Positions 1 to 64,000 of a stretch of DNA of 64,000 nucleotides are shown piece by piece. Where the stretch lies: positions 47,151,001 to 47,215,000 of the forward strand of contig CM069876.1 of NCBI GenBank assembly GCA_036172665.1. Direction: 5' to 3'. Made by a program: the position numbers and the translations under genes. This stretch comes from Prosopocoilus inquinatus (taxonomy: Eukaryota; Arthropoda; Insecta; Coleoptera; Lucanidae). Within the stretch, counting starts at the first letter, position 1. Each line of letters opens with the position of its first letter. Under the pieces are notes generated by a model that was not told the origin of the DNA, searched no databases, and saw only the letters and a program-made list of their open reading frames with translations.

Positions 1-173
1 GTTGTGACGTCTGCGATTATAAATGTGGAGGGAAAGGAACTTTAGATGACCACATGTTAATCCACGTAGAAGAAAAACCATTGGTTTGTGGCGTTTGCGA
101 TTACATGTGCCTGGATATCGATCAATTAAAACTGCACATGCTTAACACGCATATGGATGCCAACAACGCCTAA
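1..173 (+). CDS. E1: 3' end of a C2H2 zinc-finger terminal exon (partial)
   Basis: The reading frame is open from base 3 to the TAA at 171-173, and its 5' part lies outside the window. Two fingers are visible: CDVCDYKC... with a H-x3-H end, and LVCGVCDYMC... ending in H-x4-H. The tail is MDANNA. The helix residues (-1,2,3,6) are G-G-T-D and D-D-Q-K by the usual C2H2 spacing. The CDYKC framework is shared with every exon downstream, so this is a member of the same array, but the sequence resembles neither of the two main end types closely. The likely role is sequence-specific DNA binding in the nucleus, which is known for the family and inferred here. No AATAAA is obvious nearby. Confidence 0.85.
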   Translation, partial: CDVCDYKCGGKGTLDDHMLIHVEEKPLVCGVCDYMCLDIDQLKLHMLNTHMDANNA

Positions 174-367
174 AAGACCGCACAGAATTGTAAGGCGAGG
201 CACAAACCAGAGCGGAAACGAGCGCGGTGGCGGATTTATATGTTCTTCTTATGGCTACCGCGCCCGCCACCGCGCCGTTTCCGCTCTAGTGTGCGCCTTG
301 CTTAACTCTAACGAACCGCGCAATGAACCGCTTAGCGAACCGCGCGGCGGATGCTTCCATGGACGTT

Positions 368-627
368 TTAGGGTACGAGCGTGCCGAAGATGCCTCGCTG
401 TTCACCCTCGATGTTTAAGTCGCGCTCGATACCGCGATATCACGTCGATGTAAAACAAACGTACAGTTTTAAATAGAACCGTGCATATCGAAGGTGAATG
501 GGAGCGCGCTTCTGTGACATGCACGATTTCATTTAAATCTATGCGTTTGTTTTATATCGATCTATCGAGCGCGACCTAAACATCGAAGGTGAACAGTGAG
601 GCATCTTCGGCATGTTCATAACCTTAA
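368..627. mobile_element. MITE with ~60-bp terminal inverted repeats, copy 1
   Basis: The left end TTAGGGTACGAGCGTGCCGA is matched in inverse at the right end (…ggcatcttcggcatgttcat), with about 60 bp of arm. A second copy lies at 1852-2055. No coding capacity is seen. Confidence 0.7.
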
Positions 628-660
628 AGTCGCGTTCAAGGTGTTCGCGGCAACATCGGC

Positions 661-1535
661 GACGCGGTTCGCTGCGTGCAGTGTTGCCAACTACCATCAA
701 ATTAATCCGCCAGATAGAGCATGCAAATCCGCCAAATTTTGAATAAATAAGCTATATGTAAGTTGTAATACGGGCGTTTTCTGTAACTTTTTAGCGGACT
801 GTTAAAATTCAGAGGTCCTTTAAAATTTAAAATACAATTCCATGATTGGTTATTACCATAGCAACAAAATTTAACACCCCTTTAAATTTAACGGTTTTGA
901 TACAGAATAGACCCCATAAGCCTTTAAATCATTTTACATTTAGCAGTTGCTCAATCCACCTCATTAGTTAGTTACTGCCAACAAGTTATTTAATGAAAAA
1001 AAAAAAATCAATTTTCAAGTTCTGTAAACGGCTAGGCACACATCAGACTTGCCTCATTTATCGTAAGAGGGTCACAATCACTGGTTAAAAATCGCTACTA
1101 GAGATAAGTTTGTCAAGATGGCAACATTGCTTAGGAATCTTAAAACAAATGCTTGTCATTATGCCATCTAACTTTTGTAACTTCTGATGTCCTGGAATAG
1201 TTTCTAACAGATTCTAACTTTCTAGGAGAGTCTCTAACATTCTAGGATAGTTTCTAAACTTGTAGGACATCATAGTTGAAATAGATAAGTCATTGCTTGT
1301 CAATTCTAACTTTGTTACTATCATTTATTTTTTTTTTTATAAAATTTACAAGTCATATGAATTTTTTATAACATTTATAAGTCGTATTTCTGCTGAACAA
1401 AACGCGAAAATAAGAAAATCCGCCAGCAGCTAGATGGAAAATTCTGACTCCAGATATGATTTCAACTAAGCTAGAACTAGCGGGAAATTCGCTAAGTTGG
1501 CAACACTGGCTGCGCAGTTGGCTGCGCGGTTCGTT
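661..1535. mobile_element. Possible inverted-repeat element
   Basis: A GCGGTTCGCTGCGTGCAGTG-type end at 661-690 is matched in imperfect inverse at about 1497-1535. The interior is AT-rich and non-coding. It holds a block at about 785-930 (…acagaatagacccc) that recurs, diverged, at 4198-4345 and 56605-56690. Confidence 0.4.
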
Positions 1536-1851
1536 ACTTGGCGCATTTACAACTCCGTACGGTCTTTTATTTTAAATTAGTTCTTGCAACTTTAATTGCG
1601 GCGTTGTGTGTAATGTGATTTCCACTTATTACAATTAGCCTGTATGTTAGGGTACCTATAGTATGCGGAACAGTGTCTTTATAGTGTTACGAATTTGAAG
1701 TTTTAATAAATCGCTGTGTGCATTAGTGTTGGAACGTTACTTTAGGAACCTTTCTTTTGTAACGTTACATACAGGGAACGGATTGTCGTCGCGCTCCTCA
1801 ATACCAAAAAATAACGCGTTCCACGTGGAACGATATTTCAAAAATTACCTC

Positions 1852-2055
1852 TAAGGGTGCGGACGTGTCGAAGATGCCTCGCTGTTCACCATCGATGTTT
1901 AGGTCGCGCATGATGATCAAAGATGAATAGCAGCGCGCATCTTCGTCATGCACGATTTCATTTAAATCTATGCGTTCGTTTTGTATCGATCTATCGAACG
2001 CGATCTAAACATCGAGGGTGAACAGTGAGACATCTTCGGCATGTTCGTACCCTAA
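1852..2055. mobile_element. MITE with ~60-bp terminal inverted repeats, copy 2
   Basis: Same family as 368-627. The ends read TAAGGGTGCGGACGTGTCGA and …TGTTCGTACCCTAA, and the interior (catgcacgatttcatttaaa) is shared with copy 1. Confidence 0.7.
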
Positions 2056-5494: not shown

Positions 5495-6419
5495 ATGTTT
5501 TAAATCAGTAAGGACATCCGCCGAGCGTGGCGGTTTCGATCAGTTCATACCCAAATACAACACGCTGTCATCCGAAGGCGTCAAACTGTTCACTTGCGAC
5601 CTCTGCGATTACAAATGCCGACGAATCGGTCACATAAAGCAGCACATGAAGATCCACTCGAGCGAGAAGCCCTTCACCTGCGAGATTTGCGATTACAAAT
5701 GCCGATTCGCCGGCAGCCTGCGAAAGCACGCGTTAATACACACCGACGAGAAGCCGTTCGTGTGCGACCGTTGCGGTTACAAGTGCCGCGCGACCGACGG
5801 CCTCAAGCAGCACATGCGAAAGCACACGGGCGAGAAACCGTTCGCTTGCGACGTGTGCGGTCAGAGGTGCCAGAATTCCGGAAACTTGGGCAGGCACAAG
5901 CTGACGCACACCCGCGACAAACCGTTCGCTTGCGAATTCTGCGATTACAGCTGTCGCCGTCCGGAATACCTGAACCGACACATGCTGAGGCACACCGGCG
6001 AGAAACCGCTGCAATGTGACCTGTGCGATTATAGATGCGCGCTGCCCGCGCATTTAAAACGGCACATGCTGACGCACACCGGCGAAAGACACTTCAAATG
6101 CAATCTCTGCGCTTACGAAGCCAGCGTGGCCGGAAACTTGAGGCTGCACTTATTAAAGCACACCGACGAGAAGCCGTTTAAGTGCGGGCGTTGCGACTAC
6201 GTCAGCAAATCGGCCAGATATTTAAAGATACACATGCGAGTACACTCGGATGAGAAACCATTTAAGTGCAAGCTCTGCAAATACGCGTCCAAATTTCAAG
6301 GTAATCTACAGAAACATATGACAACGCACGACGAGAAGCTGCTCAAGTGTAAAGCGTGTGAATACACTTGTAAATCGACCAAAGACTTAAAAAGGCACGC
6401 GTCGTCTTCACACGTGTGA
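5495..6419 (+). CDS. E2: C2H2 zinc-finger terminal exon, class A, 10 fingers
   Basis: The exon opens after the acceptor TTTTATTTCAG (AG at 5493-5494). One base completes an upstream codon, then 307 codons run to TGA. A ~30-residue linker ends in EGVKLFTC. Ten C2H2 fingers follow at 28-residue spacing. Helix residues -1,2,3,6 are RGHQ FGSK ADGQ NGNR REYR LAHR VGNL SRYI FGNK SKDR. Finger 10 ends H-x4-H. Fingers 8-9 are the conserved class A module. Poly(A) signal AATAAA lies at 6495-6500. Expected role: nuclear DNA-binding domain of a transcription factor or chromatin protein, with the N-terminal domain supplied by an upstream exon outside the window. A reading extended upstream through the acceptor is intron read-through. 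Confidence 0.92.
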
Positions 6420-7306: not shown

Positions 7307-7312
<6 letters not shown>

Positions 7313-8807: not shown

Positions 8808-9750
8808 ATGCTCCGACGTTTCTAAACCTACGTTTTCGAACTGGACGTCCTGGGAACCCGATAATTCCGAAGATCTCGTATACGTCACAGTGTGGCATAA
8901 CGGTGAGAAGCTGTTCGTCTGCGACCTCTGTGATCACAAATGCAAGCGAAAGTACGCAATGAAACAGCACCTGAAGACACACTCCGAGGAGAAGCCTTTT
9001 TTCTGTACGCTCTGCGAGCACAGAAACCGATCGGCCAAGGGTTTGAAGAAGCACTTGATAAGACACAGCGACGATAAGCAGGTCGTCTGCGATCGGTGCG
9101 GCTACGAATGCCACACGGTCGGGATGTTGAAGCAGCACATGCGAAGGCACACCGGCGAGAAGCCGTTCGCTTGCGACCTGTGCCCCCAGAGATTTCGCCA
9201 GTCTTCGAACCTGAGGAGGCACAAGGTGACGCACACCACCGAGAAGCACTTCAGCTGCGAGTTCTGCGGCTACAAGTGCTTAACCGAGGAGTACCTGAAG
9301 CGTCACTTGATAATACACAACGGCGAGAAACCGTTCAAGTGCACCTTCTGTGATTTTAAGTGCTCGCAGGCCGCGTATCTGAAGCGGCACGTCTCGAGGC
9401 ACACCGGCGAGAAGCCGTACAAATGCGACGTTTGCGGTCACGAATGCAACCGTCCCGAAAACTTAAAGCTGCACATGCTGACGCACACCGACGAGAGGCC
9501 GTTCAAGTGCGGACGCTGTGAGTACGCGAGCAAGACGGCGAGGTATTTGAAACTGCACATGCGGGTGCATTCGGACGAGAAGCCGTTCAAGTGCGACCTT
9601 TGCAAGTACGCGTCCAAGTTTCAAGGTAACTTGCAGAAACATATGACGACGCACGAGGATCTTCTGCGATGTAATGTTTGCGAATACACGTGTAAATCGG
9701 CTAGGGATTTGAAAAAGCACGTGTCATCACACGCCAGTGAGAATTCTTAA
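8808..9750 (+). CDS. E3: C2H2 zinc-finger terminal exon, class A, 10 fingers
   Basis: The exon starts after GCTTTCATTTCAG (AG at 8806-8807) in the shared phase and runs 313 codons to TAA. The linker begins CSDVSKPTFSNW and ends HNGEKLFVC. Ten fingers have helix residues RYAQ SKGK TGMQ QSNR TEYR QAYR RENL TRYL FGNK SRDK. Finger 2 lacks the framework Cys (EHRN), and finger 4 is a canonical Phe-type finger (PQRF). The stop is followed 16 bp later by a CAGGGTGT element (9767-10000), so the 3' UTR runs into it. No canonical AATAAA was found close by. The likely nuclear DNA-binding role is inferred from the fold. Confidence 0.92.
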
Positions 9751-14212: not shown

Positions 14213-15086
14213 ATTCTCCGAATTTCGTACGCCTGCAATTCCCGAACACGTCCGAGCCGTTCCCGACCTTGAATCTCCCGAATACGTGCTGTTAAATAAC
14301 GGCGCGAAGCGATACTTTTGCGACCTCTGCGATTACAAATGCGAACCGCTCGAAAGCATGAGACAGCACTTGAGGATCCACTCCGGCGAGAAGCCCTTTT
14401 CCTGCGCGATCTGCAATTACAAGTGCAGATTCCCCGCAAGTCTGAAACAGCACGTGCTGATGCACACCGACGACAAGCAGTTCGTCTGCGACCGCTGCGG
14501 TCACGCGTGCCGCGAGGCGGGTACCTTGAAGAAGCACATGCAGAAACACGCCGGCGAGAAGCTATTCGGCTGCGACCGGTGCGAGCTGAAGTTTCAGCAC
14601 TCCGGAAACTTGAGCAGGCACATCCGCGAGAAACACACCGGCGAGAAGCAGCCGTTCGTGTGCGAGCTTTGCGATTACAAAACTCGCCGCTTGGCAACTC
14701 TAAAGCGCCACATGTTCAAACACGAAGACGGTTACGAGAAGCCATTCAAGTGCGAGCTCTGTGATTACCGGTGCGTGCAAGCTGCGTGTTTGAAACGGCA
14801 CGTGCTGACGCACACCGGCGAAAAGAACTACAAGTGCCACCTTTGCAGTTACGAGTGCAATCGGGCGCCGAATTTGAGGTTGCACTTTTTGAAGCACACC
14901 GACGAGAAGCCATTCAACTGCGAACGTTGCGACTACAAAGGCAAAACGGCCAGGCATTTACAAATGCACATGCGAGTACATTCAGAGGAGATACCGTTTA
15001 AGTGTAAAGTTTGCAAGTACGCGACTAGGTTTTCAAGTAACTTACAGAAACACGTGTTAACACATAAGAAGCAGCTGCCCAAATGA
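14213..15086 (+). CDS. E4: C2H2 zinc-finger terminal exon, class A, 9 fingers
   Basis: The exon follows TTTATTTTTCAG (AG at 14211-14212) in the shared phase and runs 290 codons to TGA. The linker begins FSEFRTPAIPEH and ends NNGAKRYFC. Nine fingers have helix residues PESQ FASQ EGTK HGNR RATR QACR RPNL TRHM FSNK. Finger 4 ends H-x4-H, and the linkers before fingers 5 and 6 are lengthened (TGEKQPF and EDGYEKPF). The two conserved class A fingers are drifting here (TRHM, FSNK) and the tenth finger is absent; the protein ends KKQLPK. AATAAA lies at 15135-15140. The intron end (gggaaacattaaagtcaaat) resembles that of E8. Confidence 0.92.
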
Positions 15087-17757: not shown

Positions 17758-18694
17758 ATGGCCTAAATCTCCAATTCTAAGCACAACCGAATACAACAGG
17801 AAAGGTGCCGAATACGTACTGAATTACAAGCTGTTAAGTAACGGCGTGCGGCTGTTCGTTTGCGATCTTTGCGATTACAAATGCGAACCGGTTAGCAGCA
17901 TAAAGCAGCACATGAAGACCCATTCCGACGAGAAACCGTTCGCCTGCGAGATCTGCGATCACCGATCTCGATTCGCCGGGAGCCTAAAACAGCACATGTT
18001 AACGCACACCGACGAGAAGCTTTTCGTCTGCGATCGTTGCGCTTACAAGTGCCGCACGGCGTCTAGCTTGAAACAGCACATGCGAAGACACGACACGGAC
18101 GCGAACCCGCTCAGCTGCGACCTGTGCGATCAGAAATTTAGATACGCCGAGAATTTGAAAAGGCACAAGCTAAAACACACCGGCGAGAAGCCTTTCACCT
18201 GTGAAACCTGCGATCGCAAGTTTCTACGCTTGGACTATCTGAAATGCCACATGCTGAGACACAACAGCGAGAAACCGATCAAGTGCGCCCTGTGTGATTT
18301 TAAGTGCGCGCAGCTTGCGTATTTGAAACGGCACATGTTAACTCATACCGGCGAGAAACGTTACAAATGCCACCTTTGCAGCTACGAATGCAGTAAATCG
18401 TTCAATATGACCTTGCACGTGTTAAAGCACAGCGACGAGAGGCCGTTTAAGTGCGACCGTTGTGAATACGCGAGCAAAACGCGGAGATACTTGAAACTGC
18501 ACATGCGCGTGCATTCGGACGAGAAACCGTTCAAGTGCGACCTCTGCAAATACGAGTCCAAGTTTCAAGGTAACTTACAGAAACACATGACGACTCACGA
18601 GAATCTACTCAAGTGTAATGTCTGCGAGTACACGTGTAAGTTGGCAAGGGATTTAAAAAGACATGTAACATCACATTCAAAGGATAATACGTAA
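17758..18694 (+). CDS. E5: C2H2 zinc-finger terminal exon, class A, 10 fingers
   Basis: The exon follows CCATTTTGTTTCAG (AG at 17756-17757), is in the shared phase, and runs 311 codons to TAA. The linker begins WPKSPILSTTEYN and ends SNGVRLFVC. Ten fingers have helix residues PSSQ FGSQ TSSQ YENR RDYC QAYR KFNL TRYL FGNK LRDR. Between fingers 3 and 4 the linker is DTDANP instead of TGEKP. Fingers 4 and 5 have Phe at the framework position (DQKF, DRKF). AATAAA lies at 18869-18874. First-finger and linker sequence is closest to E7 (CEP/CQP, SSIKQHM). Confidence 0.92.
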
Positions 18695-19310: not shown

Positions 19311-20412
19311 ATGCTTTGGGATTTCTAAGTCTGCAATTCCAAACATAGGGAAAATTGAACATGCCTTATTGGCTTCTGATTTTAAATCTCCTGAAAACCT
19401 ACTGTCAAATGACAACGACTTGAAGCATGACTGCGAAAGCACAGCGCAGAAAGCTCAACGCAAGAAGATCCGTTCCAAACAGAAGCCGCTCAACTGTGAG
19501 ATTTGCGAGTACAAATGCCGATTGCCGGGAAAATTTGAGCGACACATGTTGAGACACACCGACGCGAAGCCCTTCACCTGCGAGACTTGCGATTACAAGA
19601 GCCGATTCTTCGGAAAATTAAAGCGGCACATGCTGAAACACACCGCGGCAAAGCCGGTCGTCTGCGAGCGTTGCGACTACAAATGCAGAGACCGCTCAAC
19701 TTTAAAACGGCACATGCTCCAACACACCGGCGAGACGCCTTACAGCTGCGCGATTTGCCCTTACAAGTGTCGCTCCGCCGGAAGTTTGAAGCAACACGCC
19801 GCGTCGAAGCACACCGGCGACAAGCCGTTTATTTGCGACCGCTGCGGTCAGAAATTCCCCAGGGAAGGTGCCTTGAAGCAGCACATGCGCACGCATTCCA
19901 GCGAGAAACCCTTCACTTGCGATCTATGCCCGCAAAAATTCAGAGATTCCGGAAAACTGAAACGGCACAAGCTGACACACTCGGGCGTGAGACAGTTCAG
20001 CTGTGACCACTGCGATTTTAAACTGCAACGCGCGTCGGATCTGAAACGCCACATGCTGACCCACAAAGGCGAGAAACCGTACGAGTGTGCGCTCTGCGAT
20101 TTTAAATGCGCGCACTCTACGTACTTGAAGCGGCACATGATGAGGCACACCGGCGAGAGAAAATTCAAGTGTAATATTTGCGGCCACGAATGCAATCAGG
20201 CTTCGAATTTGAGGTTGCACTTGTTGACGCACACCGACGAGAGGCCGTTTAAGTGCGGACGTTGCGAATACGCGAGCAAAACGGCGAGGTATTTGAAATT
20301 GCACATGCGAGTGCATTCGGATGAGAAGCCTTTTAAGTGTAAGCTTTGCAAGTACGAGTCTAAGTTTCAAGGTAATTTACAAAAACACGTGTCGACACAC
20401 GGGAAGTTGTAG
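19311..20412 (+). CDS. E6: C2H2 zinc-finger terminal exon, class A, 11 fingers
   Basis: The exon follows TTCGTTTGGTTTCAG (AG at 19309-19310) in the shared phase and runs 366 codons to TAG, the longest class A exon here. The leader is long (CFGISKSAIPNIGK … to KQKPLNC) and lacks the NGVKLF motif of its class. Eleven fingers have helix residues LGKR FGKR DSTR SGSQ RGAQ DGKR RSDR HTYR QSNL TRYL FGNK. Finger 4 ends H-x4-H (AASKH). It keeps the conserved last two class A fingers but has no extra terminal finger and ends GKL. AATAAA lies at 20427-20432. An internal methionine could start a shorter reading, but the open acceptor-phase leader argues for splicing. Confidence 0.92.
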
Positions 20413-35004: not shown

Positions 35005-35497
35005 ACGTCAGCGAACCCCCAATACCGAAACAATGAATAAGAATACAGTTCCTAAAGCTGGGAGACGGAAAAAGAAAACAGTCGAATGCCGAATATGTGA
35101 TTCTAAATTTAAATCTCGCAGTTGTTTGCGCTGTCATATTTTAATACATGCCGACATGAAACCGTTCAGTTGTGAACTTTGCGATTTTAAATGTCGAACC
35201 GTTGGTAATTTGAGAAGGCACGAATTAACACACACCGACGAAAAACCGTTCAGCTGTGATCTTTGCGACTATAAGTCTCGACAGGCCTGCAATTTGAAAA
35301 ATCACTCATTAACACACACCGACGAGAAACCTTTCAGTTGTGATCTTTGCGATTATAAATGTCGACGGCTCGCTTGTTTGACAAGACACAAATTAGGACA
35401 CACCGGCGAGAAACCGTTCGTCTGTGATCTTTGCGATCGCAGATTCCGTCACCGTGTAACACTGAAACGGCACATGTCAGTACACGTCAAAGAATAA
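35005..35497 (+). CDS. E11: C2H2 zinc-finger terminal exon, class B, 5 fingers
   Basis: The exon follows GTGACTTTTTGTTTCAG (AG at 35003-35004) in the shared phase and runs 163 codons to TAA, the shortest class B exon. The leader is RQRTPNTETMNKN … RRKKKTVEC. Five fingers have helix residues SSCC TGNR QCNN RACR HVTR. Finger 1 is the Phe-type CRICDSKF finger that opens class B exons. Fingers 2-3 correspond to fingers 4-5 of E12 (TGNR, QVNN), so E11 looks like a shortened sister of E12. AATAAA lies at 35615-35620, inside a transposon end. Confidence 0.9.
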
Positions 35498-45195: not shown

Positions 45196-46039
45196 GCCGT
45201 TCAGTTGTGATCTGTGCGATTCAAAATGCCGCCACCTCAGAAGCTTGAAAAGGCACGAGCTATCTCACACCGGCGAGAAGCCGTTGACTTGCGATCAGTG
45301 CGATTATAAATGCCGAAGGACCGAACACTTGAGAAAGCACATGTTGAAGCACACCGACGAGAAGCCGTACGGTTGCGATCTGTGCGATTATAAATGCCGA
45401 CAAGTCGGAAACTTGACTCGGCACAGGTTGGTGCACACCGGCGAGAAGCCGTTCGGTTGTGATCTTTGCGATTCTAAGTTCCGACGAGTGGAGAACCTGA
45501 GAAGGCACGAGCTGACGCACACCGACAGGAAGCCGTTCACTTGCGACCTATGCGATTATACATGTCGACGATTTTCGGACTTGAGACGCCACAAGTTAAC
45601 ACACGCCGGCGAGAAGCCGTTCGCGTGTGATCTGTGCGATTTGAAATTCCGAAAAACCAAAGATCTGACGAGGCACAGGTTAACGCATACCGAGCGGAAG
45701 CCGTACAGTTGCGACCTGTGCGGTTATAGATGCCGGCAAAGTGGAAACTTGAATCGGCACAAGCTGGCGCACACCAGCGAGAAGCCGTTCAATTGCGACC
45801 TGTGCGATCTGAAATTCCGACAAGAGGTACACCTGAAAGAGCACGTGTTAACGCACACCGACGAAAAGCCGTACGGTTGCGATCTGTGCCATTACAAATC
45901 TCGACGAGTTTCGGATCTGAAACGACATAAGTTGAGACACACCGGCGAAAGGCCGTTCAGCTGCGATCTGTGCGATTATAAATGCCGGCAAATCGTCAGC
46001 TTGAAGCTGCACAAGTTAAAGCACAGCGTTCAAGCTTGA
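45196..46039 (+). CDS. E15: C2H2 zinc-finger terminal exon, class B-like, 10 fingers, no leader
   Basis: The exon follows AATCTTTTGTTTCAG (AG at 45194-45195) in the shared phase and runs 280 codons to TGA. Uniquely, the acceptor abuts the finger array: one base, then PFSCDLC. The class B leader and CRICDSKF finger are missing. Ten fingers have helix residues HRSR REHK QGNR RENR RSDR KKDR QGNR QVHE RSDR QVSL. Fingers 4, 6 and 8 are Phe-type. The contact set is Arg/Asp-rich and unlike neighbouring exons. AATAAA lies at 46071-46076. The phase still fits the shared donor, so the exon could be used, joining the upstream domain directly to a finger. Confidence 0.9.
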
Positions 46040-46689: not shown

Positions 46690-47239
46690 GCGTAAACGGA
46701 TTTCGAAAGAAAAAAGCGCAGATGAAAAGACAACCGAATGTCGAATATGTGATTCGAAATTCGCATCTCGTCAATCTTTGCGAAAACACATTTTGATACA
46801 TACCGGCGAGAAGCCGTACAGTTGTGACGTTTGCAATTATAAATGTCGACACCTTAGCAACTTGAAACAGCACAAGTTAATTCACACCGACGAGAAACCG
46901 TTTAGTTGTGATCTATGCGATTACAAATGCCGATATCTCTTTGGCCTGAAGCAGCACAAGTTACAGCACAGCGACGAGAAGCCGTTCGGCTGTAATCTTT
47001 GCGATTACAAAAGTCGGCGAATGCAATTGCTGAAGCAGCACAAATTAATTCACACCGACGAGAAGCCGCTGAGTTGTAATCTTTGCGATTTTAAATGCCG
47101 ACACCCCTTTAGCTTGATCCAACACAAGTTAAAGCACACCGACGAGAAGCCATTCACTTGTGATCTATGCGATTATAAATCCCGATATCTCTTGAGTTTG
47201 AAACGTCACAGGTTAAAGCACACCGGCGGGAAAGCGTAG
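46690..47239 (+). CDS. E16: C2H2 zinc-finger terminal exon, class B, 6 fingers
   Basis: The exon follows GGCACTCTTTGTTCCAG (AG at 46688-46689) in the shared phase and runs 182 codons to TAG. The leader is RKRISKEKSADEKTTEC. Six fingers have helix residues SQSK HSNQ YFGQ RQLQ HFSQ YLSR. Fingers 4-6 match fingers 13-15 of E19 in order (RQLQ, HFSQ, YVSR), so E16 resembles finger 1 joined directly to the last block of an E19-like exon. It ends TGGKA. AATAAA lies at 47394-47399. I chose the start from the acceptor; an internal in-frame start would lose the leader. Confidence 0.9.
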
Positions 47240-48074: not shown

Positions 48075-49464
48075 ACGTGAACGGATTTCGAAAGCTGGAA
48101 CTCTAAACGGAAAGACATTCACCTGTCGCATATGTGATTCGGACTTTACGACTCGTCAATCTTTGCGAAGTCATGTATTGATACATACTGGTGAGAAGCC
48201 GTTCAGTTGTGATCTTTGCGGATATAAATGCCGACAAATCGGATACTTGAAACTGCACAAGCTAACGCATACCGGTGAGAAGCCGTACAGTTGCGATCAA
48301 TGCGGTTTCAAGTGCCGACACCTTGGAATTTTGAAGAAGCACAGGTTAATTCACAACGACGAGAAGCCGCTGAGTTGTGATCTATGCGATTATAAATGCC
48401 GGCAAATTGGGCACCTGAAGCTGCACAAGTTAAAACACACCGACGAGAAGCCGTACAATTGCGATCTGTGCGATTATAAATGCCGACAAATGCAAATGCT
48501 GAAGCGGCACATGTTAAGTCACACCGGCGAGAAGCCGCTGAGCTGTGATCTTTGCGATTACAGCTGCCGACAGAGTGCAGGTTTGAAACGTCACAAATTA
48601 ACGCATACCGGTGAGAAGCCGTTCAATTGTGATCTATGCGATTTTAAATGCCGAGATTTTGGAATCTTGAAAAGGCACATGTTAACTCACACCGACGAGA
48701 AGCTGGTGAGTTGTGATCTATGCGATTATAAATGTCGGCAAGTTGGATACTTGAAGCAGCATAAATTGAAGCACACCGGCGAGAAGCCGTTCACTTGCGA
48801 TTTGTGCGCGTTTAAATGTCGACACATTGGAATCTTGAAGAGGCACAGGTTAATTCACAACGACGAGAAACCGCTGAGTTGTGACCTGTGCGATTACAAA
48901 TGCCGGCAAATTGAACACCTGAAGCTGCACAAGTTAAAGCACACCGACGAGAAGCCGTTCAAGTGCGATCTCTGCGATTATAAATGCCGAGGAGTTTCAA
49001 ACTTGAAACGACACAAGTTGAAACATACCGGTGCGAAACCGTTCAGTTGCGATCGTTGCGATTACAGATGCCGACAGAGTTCAGGCTTGAAACGACACAA
49101 ATTAACGCATGCCGGTGAGAAGCCGTTCAATTGTGATGTATGCGATTTCAAATGCCGACGCATCGGAATCTTGAAGAGGCACAAGTTAACTCACACCGAG
49201 GAGAAGCTGGCGAGTTGTGATCTGTGCGATTATAAATGCCGAGGAATTTCAAACTTGAAACGACACAACTTAAAACATACCGACGCGAAGCTGTTCAATT
49301 GCGATCTTTGCGATTATAGATGCCGACAGAGTGGGGGATTGAAGCGACACAAATTAACGCATACCGATGAGAAACCGTTCAGCTGTGACCTGTGCGATTA
49401 TAAATGCCGATACGTCTTTAGTTTAAAACGGCACATGTTAACGCATGCCGCCGAGAAGCCGTAG
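48075..49464 (+). CDS. E17: C2H2 zinc-finger terminal exon, class B, 16 fingers
   Basis: The exon follows CAGACTTTTTGTTTCAG (AG at 48073-48074) in the shared phase and runs 462 codons to TAG. The leader is RERISKAGTLNGKTFTC. Sixteen fingers have helix residues TQSS QGYL HGIK QGHL QQMR QAGR DGIR QGYQ HGIR QEHL GSNR QSGR RGIR GSNR QGGR YFSR. Internal repetition is clear: the H-G-I, Q-x-H-L pair occurs twice (fingers 3-4, 9-10) and the Q-x-G-R, x-G-I-R pair occurs twice (6-7, 12-13). It ends AAEKP. AATAAA lies at 49475-49480. E20 has the same length, and E18 is a six-finger relative. Confidence 0.93.
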
Positions 49465-50747: not shown

Positions 50748-50939
50748 ACAAAAGTGGCTTATTTTAGTCTCAATTACTTATCCTAGCAATTTGACAAATG
50801 AATTTTTCAACACCCTGTATATTACCTATTGATATCTATTAGATATATTCATACACTTGTGTGAAAATTCCTGTGAAATCTGTATCTTATTAATTAGTAT
50901 TGAAATTGATTGGATATTTAAAGGGACTTTCTGTTTCAG

Positions 50940-51489
50940 ACGTGAAGGAATTTCGAAAGCTAGAACCCTAAGCGGAAAGATATTCACCTGTCGCATATGT
51001 GATTCGAAATTTACAGTTCGTCTATCTTTGCGACGTCATATATTGATACATACCGGTGAGAAGCCGTTCAGTTGTGACCTTTGCGATTACAGCTGCCGAC
51101 AGAGTGCAGGCTTGAAACGACATAAATTAACGCATACCGGTGAGAAGCCGTACAATTGTGATCTATGCGATTTTCAATGCCGAGACAATGGGATCTTGAA
51201 AAGGCACAAGTTAATTCATACCGACGAGAAGCTGGTGAATTGTGATCTATGCGATTATAAATGTCGGCAAGTTGGATACATGAAGCAGCATAAATTAAAG
51301 CACACCGGCGAGAAGCCGTTCAATTGCGACTTATGCGATTACAAATGCCGAGTAATTTCAAACTTGAAACGACACAAGTTGAAACATACCGGTGCGAAAC
51401 CGTTCAGTTGCGATCTTTGCGGTTATAAATGCCGAAGCGTCTCTAGTTTAAAACGGCACATGTTAACGCATGCCGCCGATAAGCCGTAG
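50940..51489 (+). CDS. E18: C2H2 zinc-finger terminal exon, class B, 6 fingers
   Basis: The exon follows GGGACTTTCTGTTTCAG (AG at 50938-50939) in the shared phase and runs 182 codons to TAG. The leader is REGISKARTLSGKIFTC. Six fingers have helix residues VLSR QAGR DGIR QGYQ VSNR SSSR. In order these correspond to fingers 1, 6, 7, 8, 11 and 16 of E17, so E18 looks like an E17-type exon that lost ten fingers in whole units. It ends AADKP like E17 (AAEKP). AATAAA lies at 51578-51583. The intron before it is duplicated before E19. Confidence 0.92.
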
Positions 51490-52623: not shown

Positions 52624-53929
52624 ACGTGAAGGGATTTCGAAAGCTAGAACTCTAAACGGAAAGACATTCACCTGTCGCATATGTGACTCGGTATTCACAA
52701 CTCGTCTTTCTCTGCGACGTCATATATTGATACATACTGGCGAGAAGCCGTTTAGTTGTGATCTTTGCGGATACAAATGTCGACAATTTGGATACTTGAA
52801 ACTGCACAAGCTAACGCATACCGGTGAGAAGCCGTACAATTGTGATCTATGCGATTTTAAATGCACGGTCATTGGAAACTTGAAAAAGCACAAGTTGATT
52901 CACATCGACGAGAAACCGCTGAGTTGTGATCTATGCGATTATAAATGCCGGCAAACGGGACACCTGAAGCTGCACATGTTAAAGCATACCGACGAGAAGC
53001 CATATAGTTGCGATCTATGCGATTATAAATGCCGGCAGACGCGAATGCTGAAGCAGCACAAGTTAATTCACACCGGCGAGAAGCCGTTGAGTTGTGATCT
53101 TTGCGATTACAGATGCCGACAGATTGCGTACTTGAAACGACACAAACTAACGCACACCGGTGTGAAGCCGTTTAACTGTGATCTGTGCGATTTTAAATGC
53201 CGAGAAAATCGAATCTTGAAACAACACAAATTAGTTCACATCGAGGAGAAACCGTTCAGTTGTGATCTGTGCGATTATAAATGCCGACGTCTCTTCAGTT
53301 TAAACCAACACAAGTTAAAGCACACCGACGAGAAACTGTTCACTTGCGATCTATGCGATTATAAATGCGGGCAAATCCAAATGCTGAAGCAGCACATGTT
53401 AATTCACACCGGCGAGAAGCCGCTGAGTTGTGACCTTTGCGATTATAGATGTCGACAGATTGCAAGCCTGAAACGACACAAATTATCGCATACCGGTGTG
53501 AAGCCGTTCAGTTGTGATCTATGCGATTTTAAGTGCCGGGACAATCGAAACTTGAAACAGCACAAGTTAATTCACACCGACGAGAAACCTTTCAGTTGTG
53601 ATATATGCGATTATAAGTGCCGGCATCTCTTTAGCTTGAAGCAGCACAAGTTAAAGCACACCGACGAGAAGCCGTTCAGATGTAATCTTTGCGATTACAA
53701 AAGTCGGCGAATGCAGCTGCTGAAGCAGCACAAATTAATTCACACCGACGAGAAGCCGCTGAGTTGTAATCTTTGCGATTACAGGTGTCGACACTTCTTT
53801 AGTTTGAACCAACACAAGTTAAAGCACACCAACGAGAAGCCGTTTACTTGCGACCTGTGCGGTTATAAATTCCGATACCTCGTGAGCTTGAAACGTCACA
53901 AGTTAACGCATACCGACGAGATTCTATAG
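52624..53929 (+). CDS. E19: C2H2 zinc-finger terminal exon, class B, 15 fingers
   Basis: The exon follows GAGACTTTTTGTTTCAG (AG at 52622-52623) in the shared phase and runs 434 codons to TAG. The leader is REGISKARTLNGKTFTC. Fifteen fingers have helix residues TLSR QGYL VGNK QGHL QRMQ QAYR ERIQ RFSQ QQMQ QASR DRNQ HFSQ RQLQ HFSQ YVSR. Fingers 5-8 and 9-12 form two similar four-finger blocks (QRMQ QAYR ERIQ RFSQ against QQMQ QASR DRNQ HFSQ), a direct duplication of a 336-bp unit. Finger 9 has CGQ in place of CRQ. It ends TDEIL. AATAAA lies at 53982-53987, next to a hairpin MITE. Confidence 0.93.
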
Positions 53930-54660: not shown

Positions 54661-56050
54661 ATGTGAACGGATTTCGAAAGCCAGAACTGTAAACGGAAGA
54701 ACAATCGAATGTGGAATATGCAATTCGAAATTCACGACTCGCAGCTCTTTGCGAAGTCATGTCTTGATACATACCGGTGAGAAGCCGTTCAGTTGTGATC
54801 TTTGCGAATACAAATGCCGACAAGCCAGTACTTTGAAGAGCCACAAGTTAAACCATACCGACGAGAAGCCGCTAAGTTGCGATCTATGCGATTATAAATG
54901 CCGACGAATTGCACTGCTGAAGCAGCACAAGTTGAAACACACCGGCGAAAAGCCTTTCGATTGTGATCTATGCGATTTTAAATGCCGAGACGTAGGAATC
55001 TTGAAAAGGCACCAGTTAATTCACACCGACGAGAAGCCGCTGAGTTGTGACCTTTGCGATTATAAATGCCGGGAAGTCTCGAACTTAAAACGACACAAAT
55101 TAACGCACACCGGTGTGAAGCCGTTCAGTTGTGACCTATGCGATTATAAATGCTGGGAAGTTGGACGCTTGAAGCACCACAAGTTAAGGCACACCGACGA
55201 GAAGCCGTTCAATTGCGATCTCTGCGATTTTAAATGCCGAGACATTGGAATCTTGAGAAGGCACAGGTTAATTCACATCGACGAGAAGCCTCTGAGTTGT
55301 GATCTGTGCGATTATAAATGCCGGCAAATTGGGCACTTGAAGCTGCACATGTTAAAGCACACCGACGAGAAGCCGTACAGTTGCGATCTGTGCGATTATA
55401 AATGCCGGCAAATGCAAATGCTGAAGCAGCACAAATTAATTCACACCGGCGAGAAGCCGCTGAGTTGTGATCTTTGCGATTATAGATGCCGACAGAGTGC
55501 AGGCTTGAAACGTCACAGGTTAACGCATACCGGCGAGAAGCCCTTCAGTTGTGATCTATGCGATTTTAAATGCCGAGGCATTGGAGTCTTGCAAAGGCAC
55601 AAGTTAATTCACACCGACGAGAAGCTGGTGAGTTGCGACCTATGCGATTATAAATGTCGGCAAATCGGGTACTTGAAGCAGCATAAATTAAAGCACACCG
55701 GCGAGAAGCCGTTCGGTTGTGATTTGTGCGATTTTAAATGCCGGGACAATCGAAACTTGAAAACGCACAGGCTAATTCACAGCGACGAGAAGCCGTTCGG
55801 TTGCGACCAATGCGATTATAAATGTCGGCGAATGCAACTGCTGAAGGAGCACAAGTTAATTCACACCGACGAGAAGCCGTTGAGTTGTGATGTTTGCGAT
55901 TATAGGTGCCGACAAATTTCAGGCTTGATACGGCATAAGTTAACACACACCGATGTGAAGCCGTTCAGCTGTGATCTGTGCGGTTATAAATTCCGACACC
56001 TCTTGAGTTTGAAACGGCACAAGTTAACGCATACCGGCGAGAATCCGTAG
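54661..56050 (+). CDS. E20: C2H2 zinc-finger terminal exon, class B, 16 fingers
   Basis: The exon follows GAGACTCTTTGTTTCAG (AG at 54659-54660) in the shared phase and runs 462 codons to TAG. The leader is CERISKARTVNGRTIEC. Sixteen fingers have helix residues TSSS QSTS RALQ DGIR ESNR EGRH DGIR QGHL QQMQ QAGR GGVR QGYQ DRNT RQLE QSGR HLSR. It mixes blocks seen in E17 (QGHL QQMx QAGR … QGYQ) with blocks seen in E19 (DRN, RQL, final xLSR), suggesting unequal exchange between exons. Finger 6 has CWE replacing CRx. AATAAA lies at 56182-56187. Confidence 0.93.
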
Positions 56051-57319: not shown

Positions 57320-58466
57320 GCGTGCATGGATTTTGGAAGCCGGAACTCTAAAGGGAAAGTCATCCGAATGTCGGATTTGCGATTCTAGATTTGCATCTCG
57401 CACAGCTTTGCGAAATCATATCTTGATACATACGGGTGAGAAGCCGTTCGGTTGTGATCTTTGCGATTACAAATGCCGACAAATTGGATACTTGAAAAGG
57501 CACCGGTTAACGCACACCGACGAGACTCCGGCGGCGCCGCTGAGTTGTGACGTATGCGATTATAAATGCCGACGAATTGCACTGCTCAAGCAGCACAAGT
57601 TAAAGCACTCGGACGAAAAGCCGTTCGGTTGTGATCTATGCGATTTTAAAAGCACAGTCTTTGCAAGTTTGAAAAAGCACAAGTTAATTCATACCGACGA
57701 GAAGCCACTGAGTTGTGACGTATGCGATTATAAATGCCGGCAAACTGCACACTTGAAGCTGCACAAGTTAAAACATACCAACGAGAAGCCGTTCGCTTGC
57801 GATCTGTGCGATTATAAATGCCGGCAAATGCAGATGCTGAAGCAGCACAAATTAATTCACACCGACGAAAAGCCGCTGAGTTGTGATCTTTGCGATTATA
57901 GATGCCGACTGGTTGCATACTTGAAACGACACAAATTAACGCATACCGGCGTGAAACCGTTCGGTTGTGATCTATGCGATTTTGAGTGCCGGGACAGTCG
58001 AACCTTGAAACAGCACAAGTTAATACACACCGACGAGAAACCGTTTAGTTGTGATCTATGCGATTATAAATGCCGGCACCTGTCTAGTTTGAAGCAGCAC
58101 AAGTTAAAACACACCGACGAGAAGCCGTTCAGTTGTGATCTATGCGATTTTAAATGCACACTCATTGGAAACTTGAAGACGCACAAGTTAATTCACACCG
58201 ACGAGAAGCCGCTGAGTTGTGACATGTGCGATTATAAATGCCGGCAAATCGGACACTTGAACCTGCACAAGTTGAAGCATACCGACGAGAAGCCGTACAG
58301 TTGCGATCAGTGCGGTTATAAATGCCGGCAAATGCAAGCGCTGAAGCGGCACAAATTAACGCACACCGATGAGAAACCGTTCAGTTGTAACCTGTGCGAT
58401 TACAGATGTCGAATAATTGGAAACTTGAAACGGCACAAGTTAACACACACCGGCGAGTTGCCGTAG
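57320..58466 (+). CDS. E21: C2H2 zinc-finger terminal exon, class B, 13 fingers
   Basis: The exon follows GAGACTCTTTGTTTCAG (AG at 57318-57319) in the shared phase and runs 381 codons to TAG. The leader is RAWILEAGTLKGKSSEC. Thirteen fingers have helix residues STAN QGYR RALQ VASK QAHL QQMQ LAYR DRTQ HSSQ LGNT QGHL QQAR IGNR. The linker between fingers 2 and 3 is lengthened (TDETPAAP, from a ggcggcgccg insertion). Finger 4 has Ser in place of the framework Cys. It ends TGELP. A candidate AATAAA lies at 58738-58743, beyond a MITE. Confidence 0.93.
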
Positions 58467-59381: not shown

Positions 59382-59952
59382 GCGTGCACGGACTACGAAA
59401 CCTGGAATCGTAAAACGAAAGACATCCGAATGTCGGATATGCGACGCTAACTTTGCGTGTCGTAAATCCTTGCGAAATCATATCTTGATCCATACCGGCG
59501 AGAAGCCGTTCAGTTGTGATCTTTGCGGATACAAGTGCCGACAACTCGGAAACTTGAAATTGCACAAGAAGACGCACACCGGTGAGAAGCCGCACAATTG
59601 TGATCTGTGCGATTATAAATTCCAACGCGTCGGTCACTTGAAAAGGCATCGGTTAACGCACACCGACCGGAAGCCTCTAGGTTGCGATCTGTGCGATTAC
59701 AAGTGCCGGCAAATTTCAGACCTGAAACGGCACAAGTTAGTACACTCCGGCGAGAAGCCGTTCAATTGCGGGGTGTGCGATTATAAATGTCGGCAAACCG
59801 TGGACTTGAAACGGCACGTGTTAGTTCACACCGGCGAGAAGCCGTTCAGTTGTCTTTGCGATTTTAAATGCCGGACAACTTACGACTTGAGGAGGCACAA
59901 GCTGAGGCACACTGATGAGAAGCCTGTAGAATATCGTGGAGTTTTACATTAA
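59382..59952 (+). CDS. E22: C2H2 zinc-finger terminal exon, class B, 6 fingers (last one defective)
   Basis: The exon follows CGGACTTTTTGTTTCAG (AG at 59380-59381) in the shared phase and runs 189 codons to TAA. The leader is RARTTKPGIVKRKTSEC. Helix residues are CKSN QGNL RGHR QSDR QVDR TYDR. In finger 6 one codon is missing between the zinc cysteines (SCLCDFKC, so C-x-C instead of C-x2-C). After it the usual stop (KP-stop) is bypassed by one extra base, giving the tail TDEKPVEYRGVLH. Zinc binding by finger 6 is doubtful. No AATAAA is present close to the stop; one lies at 60113 inside a repeat fragment. Confidence 0.9.
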
Positions 59953-60200: not shown

Positions 60201-60239
60201 TACATAGTTTGTTTGTTTTTTTTTTAATTCGTCAATTAT

Positions 60240-61300: not shown

Positions 61301-61572
61301 TTAAACGGACCGTCTCTTTTCTTTATCTTCTTCCAAGTTGCTATTACATTCTTTTTTCATCTGGAGAGACGCGACGGTAAGTACGGCATCTACCTTTTTT
61401 TTTGTTACCTTAACCTTAACTTACCAACAATCTAATACTTTCGATGCTCTTTAATAAAACAAATAAAATCAGGTTAAACTAAAACTTCATTTTGTTTCAG
61501 TTTTTGTCTTAAATATTTGTTTATTTTCTTTATTTTAAATGCCTTTAATCTAAACATACTCTTTGTTTCCAG

Positions 61573-62152
61573 GCTTGGATGGATTTCAAAAGATGAGGGA
61601 ACACAACTCAAGCAGCACAAGTTAATGCACGCCGACGAGAAGCCGTTCGCTTGCGACCTCTGCGATTACAGGTGCCGACGAACGCAACACTTAAAAAGGC
61701 ACGTGCTAACGCACACCGGCGAGAAGCCGTTCGGTTGCGATCTCTGCGATTACAGATGCCGACTCCTGGAAGGCCTGAAAAGGCACAAGTTGACGCACAC
61801 CGGTGAAAAGCGCTGGGGTTGCGATCTATGCGATTATAAGTGCTGGAGAACTGAAGACTTGAAAAGGCACAAATTAACGCACACCGACGAGAAGCCGTCG
61901 AGTTGTGACCTATGCGATTATAGGTGTCGGAGAATTTCGGACTTGAAGCGACACAAGTTGACGCACACCGACGAGAAACCGTTCAGCTGTGATCTTTGCG
62001 ATTTTAAATCTCGATACGTGACAAGTTTGAAGCAGCACAAGTTAACGCACACCGGCGAGAAGCCGTACGGTTGTGATCTGTGCGATTATAAGTGCCGACA
62101 AGTGGCACATTTGAGACTGCATAAAGCGACAATTTCACATCATATCAGTTGA
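61573..62152 (+). CDS. E23: C2H2 zinc-finger terminal exon, class B, 6 fingers plus a half finger
   Basis: The exon follows CTCTTTGTTTCCAG (AG at 61571-61572) in the shared phase and runs 192 codons to TGA. The leader LGWISKDEGT runs straight into QLKQHKLMH, the second half of a finger. The CRICDSKF half with both cysteines is deleted. Six complete fingers follow: helix residues RQHR LEGR REDR RSDR YTSQ QAHL. The last ends HKATISH (H-x5-H) and the protein ends HIS. Variant poly(A) signal ATTAAA lies at 62252-62257. Confidence 0.9.
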
Positions 62153-62276
62153 GTGCAAATGCGAGCGATTGTGCCTGTTTGATGGGCGTGGCTGGACTGT
62201 CACGTGCTTTAAATGATTTTGATCGCAACTGAGTATAATAGTTATAACAAAATTAAATTTTTCTTTTTTTTTTTTT

Positions 62277-63105
62277 GTTTTTATCTTTTACTTGGATTAA
62301 ATAGATTTGAGTTGTTTTTGGAGCGAGTTTGATTGACCTTTGAAATAGTACGGACTGCCTTCTAATAGTTTTTTAATCTTTTTATTGTTTTGTTTTTTAA
62401 TTTTTAATTTATTTGGATTGAATAGAATCGAGTTCAGTTGTTAGGTCGACCTTGACTTTGGTGGAAATTCGCTTTAATCGCCTTTTAATATTTTTGCAAT
62501 TTTATTTCTTACTTCAATTGAATACACTTAAGTAGAGTTCAGTTGAATTGAGCTGACCTTGAGATTTTTTTAACTTGACCTTACTTTTCATTCTTTTAAT
62601 ATTTCTTTTCCTGAATTTTTTACTTGGGTTAGATCGGCTAGATATTGATATTTTTCTTAAATTTTTATCTACTTCAATATTTTAAATTTTAATTTTTTAG
62701 TTTTTTTAGTTTTTATCTTTGGCTTGTATTAAATAGAGTTGAGTTAAGTTGTTGAAAACAATTGGTTGCCCTTGAGATAGTTTGAACTGCCCTCTAATGG
62801 CGTTTTGATATTTTTATTGTTTTTTTTTTTTATTTTTAATTGTTTTTATTTTGGTTGAATAGAAACGAGTTGAGTTGTTGGGTTGACCCTGACATTGGAC
62901 AGTGGAAATTCGCTTTAATTGTTTTTTTTTTAAATTTTTTTGCATTTTCAATTTTTGCTTCAATTGATTACAATTAAGTTGAGAGCATTTGAATTGCGCT
63001 GACCTTCAGATTTATTAATCTTCATTTCTTTTTACTTTTAATTTTTTTTAATATTTCTTTTCCTGAATTTTTTACTTGAGTTGGATTGGTATATTTTTTT
63101 TTTTA
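62277..63105 (+). repeat. T-rich ~438-bp tandem duplication
   Basis: The copies at about 62277-62710 and 62715-63105 share aaatagagttgagtt, ggaaattcgctttaat, tttcttttcctgaatttttt and acttgagttggat. Confidence 0.75.
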
Positions 63106-63282
63106 TTTTTTTATTTGAAGTTATGAGTAAAAACATACTTTCTCACTATCTCGACTCACGGCTATCTCCAGATGTGAATCCACTTTATAAATGAATATGC
63201 AATTGACAATAATTTCATTAACTTTTTTTAATTTTTAAATTGAAAGTGTACCGAAATTTAACCAGACTGTTTTTTTTTTCAG

Positions 63283-64000
63283 GCGTGAATGGATTTACAA
63301 GCAAGCTGAAACCGCTGACAGGAAAACGTGTGGGATATGCGATTCTAAATTTGCATCTCCTCAGTCCCTGCGACGTCATATCATGATACATACTGGTGAG
63401 AAGCCGTTCAGTTGTGATCTTTGCGAATTCAAGTGCCGACACCCTGGAAACTTGAAACACCACAAGTTAACCCATACCGGCGAGAAGCCGCTCTGTTGTG
63501 ATCTCTGCGAATATAAATGCCGATTAATTGGACGCTTGAAACAGCACCAGTTGACGCACACCGGCGAGAAACCGTTCAGTTGCGACCTATGCGGCACTAA
63601 ATTCGGAAGAATCCTAACTTTGAAAAGGCACAAGTTAACTCACATCGATGCGAAACCGTTGAGCTGCGATCTGTGCGATTATAAATGTCGAAGAACTGAA
63701 CAGTTGAAGAAGCACAAGTTAAAGCACACCGATGAGAAGCCGCTGAGTTGTGACCTATGCGATTTTAAGTGCAGGAGAATTGGTAACTTGAGAAGGCACA
63801 AGTTAAGCCACACGGACGAGAAGCCTTTCAGTTGTGACCTGTGCGATCACAAATGCCGTGTATTTGAAAACTTGAAGAAGCACAAGTTGACGCACACCGA
63901 CGAGAAGCCGTGCAGTTGCGATCTATGCGATTATAAGTGCCGAACGGTTGAAAACTTGAAGCAACACAAGTTAACGCACACCGACGAGAAGCCGCTTAGT
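63283..64000 (+). CDS. E24: C2H2 zinc-finger exon, class B, at least 8 fingers (cut by window end)
   Basis: The exon follows AGACTGTTTTTTTTTTCAG (AG at 63281-63282) in the shared phase and stays open for 239 codons to the last base. The leader is REWIYKQAETADRKTC. Eight fingers are complete, with helix residues SQSR HGNH LGRQ RLTR REQK RGNR VENK TENQ; the next begins at TDEKPLS. Finger 1 has CGICDSKF, as in E20. Finger 4 is Phe-type with GTKFG. The stop and poly(A) signal lie beyond the window. Confidence 0.92.

Follow-up and report, generated by a model that had tools for sequence, protein, structure and literature searches.

The window analysed here, a stretch of 64 kb of contig CM069876.1 (C8, positions 47,151,001-47,215,000), contains 24 C2H2 zinc-finger exons (Table 1). 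All of them lie on the + strand, as the first-pass annotation had noted, and the array is larger than it appeared at first: inclusion of 200 kb upstream gives a stretch of 264 kb with 74 finger exons, again all on the + strand. The range of 5-16 fingers per exon given earlier holds for the window exons with a visible acceptor but not for the first exon of the window, which has 23 fingers. An Rfam search of the window gave 0 matches.

Table 1. Zinc-finger exons of the window (positions are those of the window, from its first nucleotide)
Feature	Position	Strand	Remarks
3' end of 23-finger terminal exon	1..173	+	exon start upstream at C8:47149178
Finger exon, 10 fingers	5495..6419	+	phase-2 acceptor
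Finger exon, 10 fingers	8808..9750	+	phase-2 acceptor
Finger exon, 9 fingers	14213..15086	+	phase-2 acceptor
Finger exon, 10 fingers	17758..18694	+	phase-2 acceptor, re-chosen by hand
Finger exon, 11 fingers	19311..20412	+	phase-2 acceptor
Finger exon, 9 fingers	23282..24161	+	phase-2 acceptor
Finger exon, 9 fingers	25956..26826	+	phase-2 acceptor
Finger exon, 10 fingers	29422..30415	+	phase-2 acceptor
Finger exon, 8 fingers	32678..33479	+	phase-2 acceptor
Finger exon, 5 fingers	35005..35497	+	phase-2 acceptor
Finger exon, 9 fingers	37683..38556	+	phase-2 acceptor
Finger exon, 11 fingers	39243..40287	+	phase-2 acceptor
Finger exon, 10 fingers	43090..44014	+	phase-2 acceptor, re-chosen by hand
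Finger exon, 10 fingers	45196..46039	+	phase-2 acceptor immediately ahead of finger 1
Finger exon, 6 fingers	46690..47239	+	phase-2 acceptor
Finger exon, 16 fingers	48075..49464	+	phase-2 acceptor
Finger exon, 6 fingers	50940..51489	+	phase-2 acceptor
Finger exon, 15 fingers	52624..53929	+	phase-2 acceptor
Finger exon, 16 fingers	54661..56050	+	phase-2 acceptor
Finger exon, 13 fingers	57320..58466	+	phase-2 acceptor
Finger exon, 5 fingers	59382..59952	+	phase-2 acceptor
Finger exon, 6 fingers	61573..62152	+	acceptor set by hand at 61573; second in-phase acceptor-like site at 61501
Finger exon, at least 8 fingers	63283..64000	+	phase-2 acceptor; truncated by the window end

Each of the 23 window exons whose 5' end is visible follows an AG, and its first base completes an upstream codon (phase 2), in agreement with the earlier claim; the frame is open from there to the stop or, in the last exon, to the window end. 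In the stretch of 264 kb a phase-2 acceptor has been assigned to 67 of the 74 exons by an automatic pick weighted towards pyrimidine-rich sites, with a bonus for TTTCAG, and to all 74 after correction by hand. Eleven acceptors were re-chosen by motif and reading frame, 7 being out of phase and 4 in phase but misplaced; the top listed site is phase 2 for 9 of the 11, one of these 9 being then shifted to a second in-phase site, and the acceptors of two near-identical duplicates (47117448 and 47125823) were re-chosen by eye. The acceptor is rigid across subfamilies, with TT at -6/-5 in 74 of 74, A at -19 in 58 and at -18 in 59, and a purine as first exon base in 71. The preference of the picking for T-rich, TTTCAG-like sites accounts for part of the agreement in the last six bases, but not for the A pair or the purine. 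A generic acceptor score does not single these sites out: the chosen site is the best AG of its 450-bp stretch in 42 of the 74 and beats the best AG of the opposite strand in 41. Matches to the branch-point pattern YTNAY are at the level of shuffled sequence (47 versus 46.9).

The exons have a start motif in common (xxISKxxT / xxQASKRQ) and are paralogs. Phase 2 is also the acceptor phase of four minus-strand units, all complete, at C8:44.87 Mb and of exons in L002, L004 and L007. Because the exons are paralogs, their common phase is not independent evidence, and the step from one phase to one gene that had been taken in the first-pass annotation is invalid by itself, descent from one exon being sufficient to account for it. 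Of the earlier statement that the exons end in their own stops, usually with AATAAA, the part on the stops stands and the part on the signal is weaker. AATAAA occurs within 400 nt of the stop in 16 of the 22 window exons tested and in 52 of 73 exons of the larger stretch, against 53% in background spacer DNA; within 150 nt the count is 33 of 73 (45%) against a background of 27%.

The DNA read on C8 comprises 294 contiguous kb and small samples elsewhere, and the wider extent of the array has been assessed with an exon-start query against the whole genome. Of its best 150 matches, 149 are on C8 and 141 are on the + strand at C8 46.73-49.85 Mb, and they represent at least 140 distinct + strand exon-start frames; the query recalls 10 of the 74 exons in the fully read stretch. 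If the density of one exon per 3.6 kb applied throughout, several hundred exons would lie in the occupied + strand stretches, a total size that is an extrapolation only. The acceptor pattern matches 21 known acceptors and no other site on either strand of the 294 kb, and genome-wide it has 113 matches on the forward strand and 69 on the reverse, where the reversed control has 68 and 63, the matches listed being outside C8. In protein searches (best 120 matches of each), finger proteins at 28-57% identity are among the matches listed. Finger exons arranged on one strand in this manner may serve a single common gene, or a few such genes, as alternative endings, on a scale far beyond that of the known fly examples.

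Among 28 close pairs of exons, which are not independent of each other, dN/dS ranges from 0.14 to 0.35 with a median of 0.24. The zinc ligands are nearly invariant (0.002), and the DNA-contact positions change faster (0.465) than the framework (0.214). Such selection shows that the finger exons are functional. All 74 listed frames are intact, in a scan that takes open frames with fingers and so under-counts broken copies. Ahead of the first finger, as far back as the upstream stop, 23 of the 74 frames have an in-frame ATG and the other 51 have none; with the zinc ligands so strictly kept, translation of these 51 should start in another exon. The exons could be intronless genes with unused acceptors and translation starting within the frame, as the 23 frames with an ATG would permit, or copies of which most are silent. 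Against the 51 frames that have no such ATG, the intact frames and the constraint on them, and the fact that it is at the acceptor that the spacers have kept their similarity, we consider this very improbable.

The main rival of a shared 5' region is an ordinary tandem array of finger genes, in which every gene has two exons and a promoter to itself and the first exon is tiny, diverges fast and ends in a weak donor. The same strand, the same phase and the rigid acceptor could all be passed on from one such gene by tandem duplication. In KRAB and FiNZ genes a domain exon precedes the finger exon, according to the account in PMC10547256; the ZAD genes of this genome have local upstream exons; and large C2H2 expansions are known in insects, such as the ZF271-like/APEZ genes of Oncopeltus and aphid in clusters of 4-8 genes, as described in PMC6444547. 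If the array were of this kind the spacers should contain first exons. Collinear similarity between spacers, measured with queries that took in 40 bp of exon, amounts to 551 HSP counts in the 50-bp bin adjoining the acceptor, 99 in the next and 54-69 per bin farther out, back to -750. Thus paralog similarity drops within 100 bp of the acceptor, beyond which little spacer sequence is common apart from repeats and recent duplicates. The 197 collinear islands found more than 120 bp upstream of acceptors were judged by eye, without a systematic mask, to be such repeats or duplicates, and no conserved exon-like island common to the spacers was seen by collinear similarity. A single control, a ZAD gene pair at C2:52541101-52551100, is positive: islands with 91% and 75% identity are found upstream, and the ZAD-side exon is similar too.

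Donor sites give a similar picture. Of 11 donors that could be recognised by eye elsewhere in this genome's genes, 8 are GTRAGT, so that local first exons should add about 50 occurrences; the 72 spacers (164.5 kb) have 60 in sense and 62 in antisense. Candidates running from an ATG to a phase-2 GTRAGT number 9 in sense and 16 in antisense, and a slight sense lean is present in some counts (39 versus 33 spacers with at least one GTRAGT; 140 versus 124 for GTAAG). No usable donor and no GTRAGT is found in the five shortest + strand spacers (431-650 bp) and in one minus-block spacer of 471 bp; the best ATG/phase-2 candidate in these six fits 2 of the 4 variable donor bases. A k-mer strand test of the spacers recovers the acceptor when it is left in and yields no donor-like motif. 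The k-mer GCTTTTTA is biased to the sense strand beyond the null (14 versus 0 spacers) and is not donor-like. A test with a donor matrix also gave no sense excess (mean best score 3.74 versus 4.19) and was set aside, because real donors of this genome score low on it; the GTRAGT counts were relied on instead. Sense GTRAGT sites ahead of the minus-block units (6 versus 2 antisense in 10 kb) looked suspicious and were rejected, as they are not alike and lie partly inside finger exons.

The spacers show neither a conserved 5' exon nor an excess of donors, and the shortest of them lack a usable donor, so that a separate 5' exon in the gap beside each finger exon, which had been named in advance as the outcome that would speak against a shared 5' region, is not what is seen. 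That no local first exon was detected, and that 51 frames have no ATG of their own, is stronger evidence than the common phase. A first exon that is very short and has a weak, diverged donor could escape all the tests used, and on balance we regard separate two-exon genes as rather unlikely.

A common donor exon was not found in the 294 contiguous kb and the small samples of C8. The first-pass annotation had suggested looking upstream for a BTB or other N-terminal exon; 75 BTB matches are present in the genome and none of them falls in C8 35.24-51.19 Mb, a result with which a distant donor acting in trans would be compatible. Two matches at C8:51.2 Mb were considered as donors and rejected, belonging to genes that we take, from their sequence, to be germ-cell-less-like and ARMC5-like. 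The donor-domain search took in BTB, ZAD and THAP; ZAD gave 54 matches in the genome and none on C8, and THAP none at C8 45.16-51.1 Mb among the best 150 of 448 candidates. The strongest donor-like + strand site in the spacers is a CAG|GTAAGT at C8:47034844, in phase 2 after an in-frame ATG, which sits in a gap ahead of a block of finger exons. It encodes only 9 residues and could be a chance occurrence or a piece of another transcript.

The array is interrupted at C8:47013757-47037803 by ordinary genes on both strands, which argues against a single transcription unit, and minus-strand finger blocks lie near C8 44.75-45.16 Mb and 51.04-51.10 Mb, so that a single cis-spliced gene cannot hold every copy. 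These splits and strand changes would suit a series of lola-like genes, in which each same-strand block has its own common 5' exon at its head; this is one form of the shared-5' reading and, in our judgement, quite a possible one. The position of the C8:47034844 site ahead of a block points the same way, its 9 residues the other. A gap of 1.18 Mb between the matches of one query would also fit, although a few matches of another query fall inside it. Also on the opposing side, the left end of the + strand array lies beyond the DNA read, the 5 kb sampled there still having finger exons.

The finger exons are thus paralogous, of one strand and one phase, under selection and devoid of a detectable local first exon. 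The reading that we lean towards, at slightly better than even, is that a 5' region common to many units is joined to them in cis or in trans and that local first exons do not exist. The lola- or mod(mdg4)-like organisation proposed earlier has survived tests that could have eliminated it; its positive half, the common donor exon, has not been found. Each unit begins with an acceptor and a leader that is short and variable (often xxISKxxT), continues with 4-23 C2H2 fingers and ends in its own stop; it would be joined to a 5' region outside the spacers. In the cis form a long transcript would have alternative last exons, as in lola; in the trans form, on the model of mod(mdg4), the transcripts of the units and the donor RNA would be made separately and then spliced together. 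Start codon and effector domain would come from the common part, and the DNA-reading domain, different each time, from the finger exon. The common 5' region, its identity, the joining in cis or in trans and the choice between one and several loci are what we infer from the sequence.

In its fullest form the proposal is of a megabase-scale, receptor-like diversity locus for DNA recognition, in which hundreds of alternative terminal exons of 4-23 fingers, all on one strand, and one or a few shared 5' exons, joined in cis or in trans, would let one gene or donor RNA give rise to hundreds of long and rapidly diversifying DNA-binding proteins; we put this at a little short of an even chance. If the shared donor is right, a single promoter and a single effector domain could serve hundreds of DNA-reading domains. 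Each of these could evolve freely through tandem duplication, with no regulatory sequence of its own to carry along, and diversity of the kind built in vertebrates from separate KRAB or FiNZ genes would be attained by a new route. The targets and the effector of insect finger expansions would become testable through the shared exon, and the locus would put models of alternative last-exon choice or trans-splicing to a severe test. Should the shared donor be wrong, what remains is an extreme one-strand expansion of finger genes.

The 3' exons of Drosophila lola have one or two fingers each, whereas the array described here has 4-23 fingers per exon and 74 exons in 264 kb and has yielded no BTB exon. 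Among the best-ranked titles and abstract openings, mostly of openly accessible papers, no described comparable case was recognised. As in the present array, many alternative C2H2 3' ends are found in lola, where they sit on one common 5' part; 20 isoforms are reported, 17 of them with different C-terminal C2H2 fingers (PMC11426971). In mod(mdg4) of Diptera and Lepidoptera a common 5' BTB exon is joined to at least 31 variable 3' regions, some on the opposite strand, and the same account (PMC4667647) gives 24 acceptor genes over 550 kb in the monarch and, as a separate figure, donor-acceptor distances of 0.95-1.28 Mb. Unlike those of the present array, the 3' ends of mod(mdg4) are mostly FLYWCH rather than long C2H2 arrays and their BTB donor is known. 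Same-phase 3' exons with their own stops are common to these systems and to the present locus (its last exon being cut by the window end); the BTB 5' exon is not found here.

With KRAB, FiNZ and ZAD clusters the array shares tandem paralogs, fingers in a terminal exon and contact residues that diversify faster than the framework. KRAB and FiNZ genes, as described in PMC10547256, and the ZAD genes of this genome differ from it in having their own upstream domain exon, none being detectable here, where ZAD was the domain model searched. The likeness to the ZF271-like/APEZ genes of Hemiptera is one of description only: these form a lineage-specific expansion with 3-45 tandem fingers, clusters of 4-8 genes and differing gene structure, in the account of PMC6444547. 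Among 13 finger proteins of Nilaparvata lugens, a single pair has a near-identical N-terminus; the other matching pairs are 27-89% alike in that region, the paralogs there differing in their N-termini as separate tandem genes would. The single pair, P0264/P0309, known as gene predictions only, has a 342-aa N-terminus that is 99% alike followed by different finger arrays, which is the pattern that alternative finger 3' ends would give.

The array of finger exons on one strand and in one acceptor phase, described in the first-pass annotation, is confirmed and is found to be much larger than the window. It lies on C8, the 51.5-Mb chromosome contig CM069876.1 of the 650-Mb assembly of Prosopocoilus inquinatus (173 contigs). 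The presence of ZAD-type genes and of a germ-cell-less-like gene points to an arthropod, and probably to an insect. The window encodes 24 finger exons, all on the forward strand, and the 264-kb stretch analysed as one (the window and the 200 kb to its left) encodes 74, again all forward, with 4-23 fingers each (mean 10.05). All 74 exons start after an AG acceptor, one base ahead of a codon boundary, 67 of them by automatic pick and the total with 11 acceptors re-chosen by motif and frame, of which 7 were previously out of phase. Each is open to its stop, the last one to the end of the window. Acceptors within the window include those at 5495, 8808, 14213, 17758 and 19311. The median spacer between neighbouring exons of this stretch is 1.7 kb long; the shortest measures 431 bp and the longest 24 kb.

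Additional forward finger exons have been identified in the next 30 kb leftward and in a 5-kb sample (46726001-46731000). A 58-residue exon-start query gave 6212 first-look candidates genome-wide; 149 of the best 150 of these are on C8, 141 on the forward and 8 on the reverse strand, and the forward matches among this best 150 represent 140 distinct frames, spread over 46730890-49851180 and interrupted by a single gap of 1.18 Mb. Among the matches listed for a second query, from another subfamily, all are on C8 and a few fall within that gap. Among those listed for a third query, at 46728095, none is on the forward strand further left and one is off C8. Fingers on the minus strand of C8 occur at about 44.75-45.16 and 51.04-51.10 Mb, and four complete minus units have the acceptor phase of the forward array and a similar exon start. 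A THAP-domain match on the forward strand (C8:44714872) adjoins a minus-strand finger block. Phase-2 acceptors, in which one exon base completes the upstream codon, are also present at exons of three C8 loci (47.40, 50.57 and 50.67 Mb). A crude scan of six loci on other contigs (L001, L003, L005, L006, L008 and L034) revealed no array-type acceptor, with some in-phase sites like TTCCAG, TTTCAG or TCTTAG listed. Repeats, duplications and other features within the array are collected in the table.

Features located within the finger-exon array of C8
Feature	Position	Strand	Remarks
Three long adjacent frames	C8:46926442-46931655	-	735, 473 and 594 aa (L031-L030); look like a retroelement inserted between finger exons
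Ordinary genes in a 24-kb gap	C8:47013757-47037803		by recognition of sequence taken to be CUB-like (+), PTGES2-like (-) and GAR1 (-)
Recent tandem duplication of two neighbouring finger exons	C8:47117448-47120618 and 47125823-47129161		first pair (47117448/47125823) 98% identical, second pair 82%
Two-copy array	window 13263-13469		unit resembles the 102-bp satellite
102-bp satellite	window 15238-17590		separates two finger exons; about 23 copies with 97% matches
Spacer tandem repeat	window 20941-22688		period about 350 bp
Spacer tandem repeat	window 27480-29018		period 182 bp
Spacer tandem repeat	window 40502-41067		period 192 bp
Spacer tandem repeat	window 41353-42062		period 132 bp
Element of about 508 bp in four spacers	window 34272-34779, 36961-37468, 50242-50748, 51933-52439		inverted ends of about 115 bp; copies about 89-90% identical

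The exons have a common start motif (xxISKxxT or xxQASKRQ); they are therefore descendants of one ancestral exon and have inherited its single phase. The acceptor pattern is more telling than the phase. The last 25 intron bases approximate YTAAWG-N4-TTTTRTTTYAG followed by a purine and are kept across subfamilies, the final bases being partly a product of site picking. Similarity between spacers is concentrated in the last 50 bp (551 counts, against 99 in the next bin and 54-69 per bin thereafter). Counting against this, the array sites are not set apart by a generic acceptor score, and YTNAY matches at the acceptors equal those of shuffles.

For 28 exon pairs at least 70% identical, which have members in common and so are not independent, the median dN/dS is 0.24 (range 0.14-0.35). 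The pooled ratio is 0.002 at the zinc ligands, 0.21 in the finger framework, 0.27 in the linkers, 0.465 at DNA-contact positions and 0.61 in the leader ahead of the first finger. The low ratios and near-invariant ligands make production of the array proteins very probable. The fastest-changing residues of the fingers are those that read DNA, which is the behaviour expected of a diversifying family.

An in-frame ATG ahead of the first finger is absent in 51 of the 74 frames, which therefore need an upstream coding exon. Comparison of paralogous spacers gave 197 collinear islands more than 120 bp from the acceptor; on visual inspection these consist of repeats and recent duplicates, with no common exon among them. 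In the one control pair, two ZAD genes of the P. inquinatus genome that both have their own exon upstream of the fingers, this type of comparison brings out strong islands. Among 11 donors chosen by eye in other genes of the genome, 8 are GTRAGT (additional probing yielded either a repeat or nothing clear); at that rate local first exons should contribute about 50 additional sense sites. The 72 spacers counted, with the 24-kb gap left out, have 60 sense versus 62 antisense sites; 39 versus 33 spacers have at least one, and 9 versus 16 have a candidate running from ATG to a phase-2 GTRAGT. The five shortest forward spacers and one minus-block spacer lack GTRAGT, and their best ATG/phase-2 candidate has 2 of the 4 variable bases. 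The exons at C8:46994665, 47047344 and 47103656 are examples of those that follow the shortest spacers. No sense-biased donor-like k-mer was found in the spacers, the one sense-biased 8-mer not being donor-like.

These spacer tests make local first exons unlikely, and to that extent the proposal of a giant alternative-3'-exon locus stands; the common donor it calls for was not found. Ordinary tandem genes, each with an undetected tiny first exon, could agree with all four tests if that exon were very short and its donor weak and diverged, and we consider them the less likely reading. The array is read, with somewhat better than even confidence, as a set of alternative 3' exons served by one shared 5' region or by several. 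A cis locus would need its exons to be on a single strand, as they are here for more than 3 Mb, yet tandem duplication produces the same arrangement; the ordinary genes within the array and the minus blocks speak rather for trans-splicing, or else for several loci joined in cis. Several block-wise loci, a form of the shared-5' reading and counted within it, are a tentative possibility.

A search for BTB, ZAD and THAP domains gave no match within the array stretch of C8, and the BTB exon that the first-pass annotation named as one to look for was not recovered there. The strongest sense donor-like site of the forward spacers (CAG|GTAAGT, 47034844, phase 2 after an ATG) sits between the ordinary genes of the 24-kb gap and the next finger block. 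It would contribute only MRCLLGSSH and carries little weight as a candidate donor. The expected place for a cis donor is the interval at 45.16-46.73 Mb, which separates the minus block from the left end of the forward array.

Joining in cis and in trans are both known in insects, from lola and mod(mdg4). For lola, 20 isoforms are described, of which 17 differ in their C2H2 ends (PMC11426971), and for mod(mdg4) at least 31, with some of the acceptors on the opposite strand, with 24 acceptor genes across 550 kb in the monarch and reported donor-to-acceptor distances of 0.95-1.28 Mb (PMC4667647). Both have a BTB donor, which was tested for and not found in the P. inquinatus array, and the array is therefore not classed as a member of either. 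Two predicted proteins of Nilaparvata lugens (P0264 and P0309) have a 342-residue N-terminus common at 99% and differ in their finger arrays, and possibly represent an independent gene with alternative 3' finger exons. If the reading of a shared 5' region is right, the P. inquinatus array would work like lola and mod(mdg4).
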